From Phycisphaerales bacterium (lineage in GTDB: Bacteria; Planctomycetota; Phycisphaerae; Phycisphaerales; SM1A02): DNA of 64,000 nucleotides. Shown here piece after piece: positions 12,442-13,844 of the stretch. How positions within the stretch are numbered: the first letter of the stretch is position 1; each line of letters starts with the position of its first letter. The notes below the pieces were generated by a model. The model saw only the letters and a list, made by a program, of their open reading frames with translations. It did no database searches and was not told where the DNA came from. Location: contig SIAP01000010.1 in NCBI GenBank assembly GCA_009691725.1, positions 1-64,000 on the forward strand. The letters run 5' to 3'. The position numbers and the translations under genes are program-made.

Positions 12442-13146
12442 TTACTCTTGGGTGGTTAGTTCGCGCTGTGTCGTGAATGGACGACCCGTTGACCCATCGA
12501 CAAACTCCAATCGCGCGGTGGTCGTTCCCTTGCATCCCCAACCCTCGCCAGCGAGCGGCAATTCGATTGTGTAGTGAGATCCCATCATGCCTCCCCGCCA
12601 CGCATCGCGCACCTGCGAGGGCGAAAGTGCGATCTGACCAAGCGTCCGTGATTCTCCCGCCGCAGTCAGTTCGAAGATTGACAATTGCACACGGCCGACG
12701 ATTTGAATGAACCGACCCAGCCCATCGGATGGTTCTAGATAGATCCGCGCCAGACAGGATGGGGAAGACTCGACATGACTGAGCGACCCCAACCGAATTG
12801 CCGCCAGGTACGGCGTCGCGGCCACGATTTGCGGGTCGATTCCAGAACGCGCCTCTGCGTCCTTCGCAAGCCGAGTCAACTGTTGTTCCAACTGGATCTT
12901 CTCTGCTTCGAGCGCTTCGATCCGCTCTGTGAGATCACGAACTTGACTGCGCAGGGCATCATTGGGGTTTGGAGCAAGCGCGGTTCCTGCGCACCCAGCA
13001 ACTACCACGAGTGATGGCATGACGATGATGAGTGTCATGCGTGTCATGCGTGTCATGCGTGTCATGCGTGTCATGCGTGTCATGCGTGTCATGCTTGTCA
13101 TGCTTGTCATGGCACACCCTGTCATTGCTCTCGATTGATCTTTCAT
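12442..13146 (-). CDS. Lipoprotein with coiled coil and an (MTR)n repeat before its signal peptide
   Basis: 234 residues from ATG 13146. The first 38 residues include MTS-MTS-(MTR)6-MTL encoded by a 9-bp tandem repeat; a hydrophobic core (LIIVMPSLVVVAGC) with lipobox VAGC follows, placing the lipidated Cys at residue 52. After export the protein has a heptad coiled coil (RSQVRDLTERIEALEAEKIQLEQQLTRL) and a C-terminal beta-rich domain of unknown type. ATG 13146 overlaps the rex stop (ATGA) and is preceded by AGAGG at a 6-base spacing, so it is the best start; but every repeat unit offers another in-frame ATG. Function unknown; possibly an envelope spacer working with the amidase downstream. 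Confidence 0.75.
   Translation of the reverse strand: MKDQSRAMTGCAMTSMTSMTRMTRMTRMTRMTRMTRMTLIIVMPSLVVVAGCAGTALAPNPNDALRSQVRDLTERIEALEAEKIQLEQQLTRLAKDAEARSGIDPQIVAATPYLAAIRLGSLSHVESSPSCLARIYLEPSDGLGRFIQIVGRVQLSIFELTAAGESRTLGQIALSPSQVRDAWRGGMMGSHYTIELPLAGEGWGCKGTTTARLEFVDGSTGRPFTTQRELTTQE
13032..13112 (-). repeat. 9-bp in-frame tandem repeat (ATG-bearing) in lipoprotein gene
   Basis: Nine consecutive 9-bp units. Seven are identical (GTGTCATGC on +, 13032-13094) and two differ by one or two bases (TTGTCATGC, TTGTCATGG). On the coding strand each unit reads ATG-ACA-CGC or ATG-ACA-AGC, giving Met-Thr-Arg or Met-Thr-Ser. Because the unit is a multiple of three, gain or loss of units by slippage would keep the frame. 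Confidence 0.95.
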
Positions 13147-13844
13147 GCTGCACCTCTGTCTGATCCGCGCTTCTGTTCACGTCGACCTGACTGATCTCGA
13201 CGAGAGATGTCCATCGAAAGTTGCTCGAGCGAAACGCTCACGTCGATGTTGGTCACACTGATGCCTTCGTCCACTGCAATTCTCATGGGTGCGAAGTTTA
13301 GGATCCCCCGGATCCCTGCGCCGCAGAGTTGATTTGCTGCCGCTTGAGCCGCAGACCGCGGAACGGCGAGGATGGCGATGGTGATGTCGTGGCGACAGAT
13401 CAGGCGTTGCATCGCATTCAGTGGCGAAACGACATGCCCACTGACCTTCTTCCCAACCATGCGCGGATCCGCGTCCACGACGGCGACGATTGGAAATCCA
13501 TCCTGTGCGAATCCTTCGTAGGCGAGGAGTGCTCGACCGATATTGCCGACTCCCATGAGGAGTGTCGACCATCTGCGATGCGTGCCGATGACCCGACGGA
13601 CCGACTCGCACAAGGCGGCGCAGTTGTAACCCACCCCTGCTTGCCCAGTCTCGTCGCTGCCGCGCGACTTCACGACCCACGCCAAATCCTTGCGCACTTG
13701 CGCTCCTGGAATACCGAGTTTCTCGCCCAACTCTCTCGAACTCAATGTGTTCTGTCCTTGTTCGATGATCGGACGCATCTCGCGCAAGTACAAACTCAAT
13801 CGCTGCGCGGTGGGTCGAGGTATTGGGCGATCCTTCGATGGCAC
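13143..13844 (-). CDS. rex: Redox-sensing transcriptional repressor Rex
   Basis: 233 residues. The N-terminal winged helix has SSRELGEKLGIPGAQVRKDLAW, the hallmark Rex DNA-recognition region, and the second half is a Rossmann domain with LMGVGNIGRALL binding NAD(H). Rex senses the NADH/NAD+ ratio and represses respiratory or fermentative genes when NAD+ is high. The start codon is GTG 13844; the frame has no nearby ATG that keeps the helix-turn-helix intact. It is divergent from metF with only 28 bases between the starts, so the promoters must lie in or next to the coding starts. It is the first gene of a unit with two lipoproteins and an amidase. The C-terminal 20 residues are unusually rich in Arg. 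Confidence 0.93.
   Translation of the reverse strand: MPSKDRPIPRPTAQRLSLYLREMRPIIEQGQNTLSSRELGEKLGIPGAQVRKDLAWVVKSRGSDETGQAGVGYNCAALCESVRRVIGTHRRWSTLLMGVGNIGRALLAYEGFAQDGFPIVAVVDADPRMVGKKVSGHVVSPLNAMQRLICRHDITIAILAVPRSAAQAAANQLCGAGIRGILNFAPMRIAVDEGISVTNIDVSVSLEQLSMDISRRDQSGRREQKRGSDRGAA
13153..13157 (-). promoter_or_regulatory. Ribosome binding site for lipoprotein start at 13146
   Basis: AGAGG on the minus strand lies 6 bases before ATG 13146 inside the last codons of rex. It supports the coupled start rather than one of the repeated internal ATG codons. Confidence 0.55.

Follow-up and report, generated by a model that had tools for sequence, protein, structure and literature searches.

A lipoprotein gene of the window (the whole 64,000-nt stretch of DNA that was analysed) carries a tandem repeat with an ATG in every unit just ahead of its signal-peptide core, and this raises the question of whether the array multiplies the start codons of the gene, tunes its signal peptide or is simply tolerated there. 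Reading the sequence directly, nine 9-bp units (81 bp, minus strand) were found within an ORF of 234 amino acids (12442-13146, minus strand), in the order ATGACAAGC twice, ATGACACGC six times and ATGACACTC once; the translation is MTS-MTS-(MTR)6-MTL, it falls within the lipoprotein signal peptide and it directly adjoins the hydrophobic core IIVMPSLVVVAG-C. Tandem Repeats Finder (TRF) reported 9.3 copies at 13028-13111 with a 97% match and a score of 147, the highest among the 45 rows in the window, and the identity of the six central units along 54 bp rules out chance as the origin of the array. The sequence, the ORF and the repeat score thus agree with an earlier reading made from the sequence only, which had described nine such units before the core. 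That reading had also credited each unit with an ATG and one positive charge; the ATG is indeed present in all nine, but the charge is confined to the six MTR units and is missing from the MTS pair and from MTL. Its statement that changes in copy number keep the reading frame was correct, since 9 bp is a multiple of three. With head-to-tail copies of a unit divisible by three inside a long ORF, the array is an in-frame coding tandem repeat (VNTR-like) and not a phase-variable contingency locus, because the unit preserves the frame and the array lies within the coding region rather than in a promoter. RNA structure was considered as a role of the array and dropped, the folding of the array region being no better than that of shuffled sequences (z +1.15).

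The features of the locus, together with the arrays of other genes in the genus that lack an upstream start, are collected in Table 1. The n-region, the hydrophobic core and the lipobox cysteine of a bacterial lipoprotein (signal peptidase II substrate) could be recognized by eye in IIVMPSLVVVAGC, and the column of cysteine 52 was conserved in at least 90% of the 14 aligned orthologue rows. The mature part gave no Pfam or NCBIfam match above the curated cut-offs, only zipper matches below them. The product of the overlapping rex gene scored 213.1 bits with the NCBIfam Rex subfamily model (cut-off 126) and matched the Pfam families CoA_binding and Put_DNA-bind_N.

Table 1. Features of the lipoprotein locus (window positions) and Met-frame arrays of the genus with no in-frame start upstream
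Feature	Position	Strand	Basis
rex-type redox-sensing repressor gene, GTG start	13143..13844	-	ORF, NCBIfam, Pfam
GAGGTG, Shine-Dalgarno-like site ahead of ATG 13146	13151..13156	-	sequence; duplex energy
ATGA, lipoprotein ATG overlapping rex stop TGA	13143..13146	-	sequence; same offset in 13/18 relatives
Codons 1-12 (MKDQSRAMTGCA), n-region upstream of array	13111..13146	-	sequence, ORF
Nine-unit 9-bp array, codons 13-39	13030..13110	-	sequence, TRF
Signal-peptide core IIVMPSLVVVAG and lipobox cysteine 52 (VAGC)	12991..13029	-	by eye; Cys column aligned
Mature lipoprotein, possible zipper stretch, conserved C-terminal part, stop codon	12442..12990	-	alignment
Arrays without upstream start, window genome (G000): C13 (Mfd-like), C50 (RibH)			
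Arrays without upstream start, G015: C5; C12 (HlyD-type); C12 (NagB-like)			
Arrays without upstream start, pilin-like: G013:C33; G017:C113			G017:C113 by eye, no Pfam match

As two in-frame ATGs, at 13146 (codon 1) and 13125 (codon 8), precede the array, the start codon of the window gene need not lie within it. When the duplex energy of each in-frame ATG was calculated with a generic anti-Shine-Dalgarno sequence, ATG 13146 gave the best value (-7.1 kcal/mol), followed by the ATGs of the first two array units (13110 and 13101, -4.1 kcal/mol) and by ATG 13125 (-3.0 kcal/mol); the remaining seven array ATGs gave 0.1 to 0.7 kcal/mol and had no Shine-Dalgarno match. Moreover, in 13 of the 18 other genomes of the genus (L004 to L016) the start in the lipoprotein frame overlaps the stop codon of a rex-like gene exactly as in the window (eight ATG codons, five GTG codons), and no rex tail was found by the script in the other five (L002, L003, L017, L018 and L019). 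An overlap-type ATG stands 22 residues before the cysteine in 6 of the 18 relatives (L003, L004, L005, L006, L008 and L012), and in the other scored loci the distance from an overlap-type start to the cysteine is 18 to 33 residues, with the reservation that in L007 the script put the cysteine in the wrong place and in L013 it located no cysteine; in the window, the cysteine is residue 52. Because of the conserved overlap and the best duplex energy, initiation most likely takes place at ATG 13146, coupled to rex, and the proposal that the array is the site of translation start was not supported for this gene. Automatic start calls in these genomes may miss the true start by many codons.

The mature part of the lipoprotein is conserved, matches having been obtained in 73 of the 101 genomes searched (E <= 0.001), including all 19 of the genus, and an orthologue is thus present in each of the 18 other members. 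No array was found in the lipoprotein N-termini that were read among these 18 relatives, one contig of which (G005, L018) begins inside the N-terminus. The array is therefore specific to the window lineage and represents an addition between the conserved start and the hydrophobic core. A copy number that is constant among relatives, which would have spoken against the sequence-only reading, was not observed, the array being present here and absent elsewhere. These differences between species, with one genome per species, would point to copy-number instability. We conclude that the array is a genuine, lineage-specific and frame-safe repeat in a signal peptide.

A second site in the genome, a convergent intergenic stretch (G000:C4:56425-56456, L054 6426-6457), holds 3.6 copies of the exact unit, and the gene just upstream of it reads by eye as polyphosphate kinase 2. 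A dispersed or mobile 9-bp element, recognised at the DNA level and inserted at CATG sites, would account for the two places, and CATG may be in excess among the period-9 repeats of the genus, being present in 17 of the 26 rows of the survey described below as compared with about 4% of random 9-mers. Nevertheless, a dimer of the unit with up to two mismatches occurs at these two places only in the genome, the units vary between loci, and the survey contigs were partly selected for holding arrays, with seven period-9 rows without CATG in a single genome (G015), which makes such an element highly unlikely. The related idea of a DNA-uptake or otherwise dispersed signal was dropped, GTGTCATGC occurring outside the array three times in the window, both strands counted together, where 0.73 are expected; among the remaining 8- and 9-mers of the window none is conspicuous. 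A rule that only CATG 9-mers expand, which a smaller survey had suggested (8 of 12 rows), was withdrawn when 9 of the 26 rows of the larger survey lacked CATG.

Similar repeats recur in relatives of the window genome. Of 151 relatives, 12 matched the pattern (ATGACNNNN)4, seven from among the 19 of the genus and five from among the 132 outside it, and the backwards control gave no match; the matches in G008, G012, G042 and G114 are ATGACG-type units that resemble runs of Asp codons (checked in G008, by eye in the rest). The stricter (ATGACNNNC)4 was found in 2 of 294 genomes across the phylum, one of them the window's own, in a sample that holds a single other member of the family. Within the genus, Met-frame arrays were located at the N-termini of unrelated genes (NagB-like, HlyD-type, FlgM-like, LpoB-like, pilin-like, FtsH-like and Sel1-repeat), and outside it at the N-terminus of a menaquinone-biosynthesis (VitK2_biosynth) gene in G051. 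The looser pattern (ATGN6)5 matched 91 of 101 relatives, many of the matches, judged by eye, being Met motifs like those of GroEL and SRP, and a bare count of ATG repeats at 9-bp spacing therefore proves nothing. The notion of start-codon arrays as a general bacterial trait was likewise abandoned: a scan of genome_contigs for (ATGACNNNC)5 returned at least 120 stretches, and among the 80 listed the longest frame was His in 59, Met on the array strand in 10, Met on the other strand in 7 and another in 4. Six of the 10 array-strand Met stretches among the matches listed were judged to be N-terminal in credible genes (L271, L303, L306, L315, L322 and L333), and two of these, L303 and L333, match contigs of this genus in length. 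As a separate observation, lipoprotein-like hydrophobic cores built of 9-bp repeats on the other strand (GML x8, IMV and MVV types) were seen at G013:C18:445982 (L108), G009:C39:4933 (L222) and G004:C1:436160 (L165).

A census of the pattern CATGN5 x4 in all 19 genus genomes gave matches in 14 of them and none with the backwards control (GTAC). Once overlapping rows had been collapsed by hand and 13 GroEL-GGM-like loci dropped (the C-terminal GGM tail was checked for the window genome), 36 loci were retained, and their gene frames were assigned by hand with the aid of codon-usage scores, four being left without a call (G018:C18, G013:C7, G008:C3 and G017:C10:11407). An array was scored by eye as N-terminal when it contains the earliest possible start, or when a plausible start lies less than about 50 codons ahead of it. 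By this hand classification all 18 Met-frame arrays were N-terminal, as compared with 5 of the 14 in the His or Cys frame, the other 9 being internal (Fisher p = 7e-5; three of the 14 belong to one orthologous family, G012:C95, G011:C81 and G009:C9). Other 9-bp arrays that contain CATG in the same genomes, which we take to be the GGM tail of GroEL and His-rich HDx loops, differ in being internal or C-terminal motifs in another frame or place. HDx arrays were seen in a loop of a protein reading as NuoL in four species (L053, L125, L168 and L226).

Two further Met-frame arrays of the genus (NagB-like and LpoB-like) came from another pattern, and 20 arrays could hence be inspected for upstream starts. 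In seven of them the stretch from the last in-frame stop to the array lacks ATG, GTG and TTG (Table 1), and these genes therefore probably have their start codon within the array, if they do not use a rarer codon. The general idea that repeats multiply start codons, which was not supported for the window gene, thus finds its place in other genes of the genus, where the 9-bp duplication recurs and has probably copied the start codon itself.

The gene for RibH, found in all 19 genomes of the genus, provides the most direct evidence for a duplicated start 9-mer (the start and the next two codons) whose number varies between species. In the window genome ribH (G000:C50:63369-63656; L230, L391) begins with MKPMNPMNPMKP, that is, with four copies of the start 9-mer, and two copies are present in G014 (MKPMKT) and G010 (MKPMKP). 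In 16 of the 19 genomes the conserved core is preceded, at a distance of 17 to 22 codons, by an ATG without a 9-bp repeat; the start is less sure in G007, G015, G010 and G002, which have further in-frame ATGs well upstream. With 1, 2 and 4 copies, ribH offers a natural series for asking whether redundant starts alter initiation. A GGCTACCATT-like stretch was also noted shortly upstream of the ribH start in many members of the genus (L391-L409).

Repeats of the genus were then viewed irrespective of ATG. In 1.94 Mb from six genus genomes, on contigs whose partial selection for arrays keeps the rates from being unbiased, 54 of the 63 rows of at least three copies had a period divisible by three, namely 9 (26 rows, with array L240 counted as two and the GroEL tail included), 12 (17), 18 (5), 24 (3) and 6, 15 and 21 (1 each), and the others had periods of 10 (4 rows), 13 (2), 20 (2) and 11 (1). 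Arrays without ATG were located by eye in post-signal linkers, signal-peptide neighbourhoods, N-tails and C-tails. The prevalence of periods divisible by three and the presence of ATG-less arrays in linkers and tails fit slippage filtered by tolerance. Two arrays of other periods were noted in the window's genome, one of 13 bp x6.8 (L118 4048-4136) and one of 20 bp x4.2 (L122 7912-7995).

The reading that we regard as probable is that a frame-neutral 9-bp repeat, made by slippage, sits in the n-region of the lipoprotein and is tolerated there, with the start at 13146 and with the same process recurring in the genus. Slippage would copy 9-mers at gene starts, and N-termini would tolerate the result; at this locus an ATGACAnnC-type 9-mer near the start would have been duplicated and then expanded, the identical ATGACACGC units being the newest step. 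Tolerance would be favoured by a unit length divisible by three, by the lack of a stop codon in the gene frame and by an added n-region that is no more than mildly basic. Slippage on its own is at odds with the 3.6-copy intergenic site, which local slippage does not predict. In contrast to tolerance, start-codon redundancy might be selected, extra in-frame ATGs raising or buffering initiation and copy number tuning it, as the N-terminal bias of Met-frame arrays, the seven genes without an upstream start (including ribH, nagB-like and Mfd-like) and the variation of ribH among species would allow. We consider this unlikely, given that seven of the nine window-array ATGs have no Shine-Dalgarno match and that the ATG-less arrays of N-tails, linkers and C-tails suggest that tolerance may suffice; the N-terminal bias could nevertheless reflect selection as well as tolerance.

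That the array tunes the charge of the n-region, and with it export or lipoprotein maturation, appears very improbable: six arginines are indeed added before the hydrophobic core, but a third of the window units are uncharged, the orthologues have short n-regions, and related arrays are either uncharged (MTT, MTN, MTS) or form the hydrophobic core itself (GML, IMV and MVV types). An assembly artefact, which a draft genome of 51 contigs might suggest, has a next to negligible probability for an array of just 81 bp that has distinct edge units and joins the halves of one conserved gene in frame, with arrays of other units recurring in other genomes. The window array, probably a tolerated product of slippage, is most likely neutral and, taken alone, an ordinary outcome for a signal peptide.

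In-frame coding tandem repeats of bacteria alter the length of a protein upon expansion and keep its reading frame, whereas phase-variable repeats usually act by breaking the frame. In lic2A of Haemophilus influenzae, a repeat of 4 bp alters the reading frame and thereby switches the gene, and the start codons lie outside the repeat. This gene is reported by Dixon et al. (2007) to be phase-variable and to have more than one functional initiation codon. The window array resembles lic2A in having a repeat near the 5' end and more than one possible start, but its 9-bp unit is frame-neutral and each unit carries an ATG. In the opa genes of Neisseria the CTTCT repeat is placed in the leader. Such a CTTCT repeat of opa is named in PMC5320596, and it resembles the window array in lying within 5' coding sequence for an exported protein; however, its 5-bp unit leads to frame shifts and phase switching, with no multiplication of start codons. 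A short unit that is a multiple of three is shared with the in-frame coding repeats (VNTR), the class to which PMC3899988 relates, and the present unit differs from that class in carrying an ATG and in sitting in a signal-peptide n-region or, elsewhere in the genus, in holding the start codon. Among the papers listed by our literature search, which covered the larger result sets partly, none has a title or abstract opening that deals with the multiplication of start codons by bacterial tandem repeats.

The wider pattern of start-codon-multiplying repeats in the genus, which are frame-safe and occur both in housekeeping proteins and in exported ones, deserves further attention, and these repeats may have some effect on translation. 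It is improbable, though conceivable, that expansion of the start 9-mer constitutes a recurrent and evolvable layer of translation control in the genus; if it did, copy number would set the frequency of initiation and the heterogeneity of the N-terminus without a risk of frame loss, and the layer would span ribH (1, 2 and 4 copies) and nagB-like, Mfd-like, pilin-like and secretion genes (about four copies). The Mfd-like gene of the window genome (G000:C13:116128, L211 2129-2159) reads MPPMPLMPHM at its first possible ATG, GTG or TTG start.
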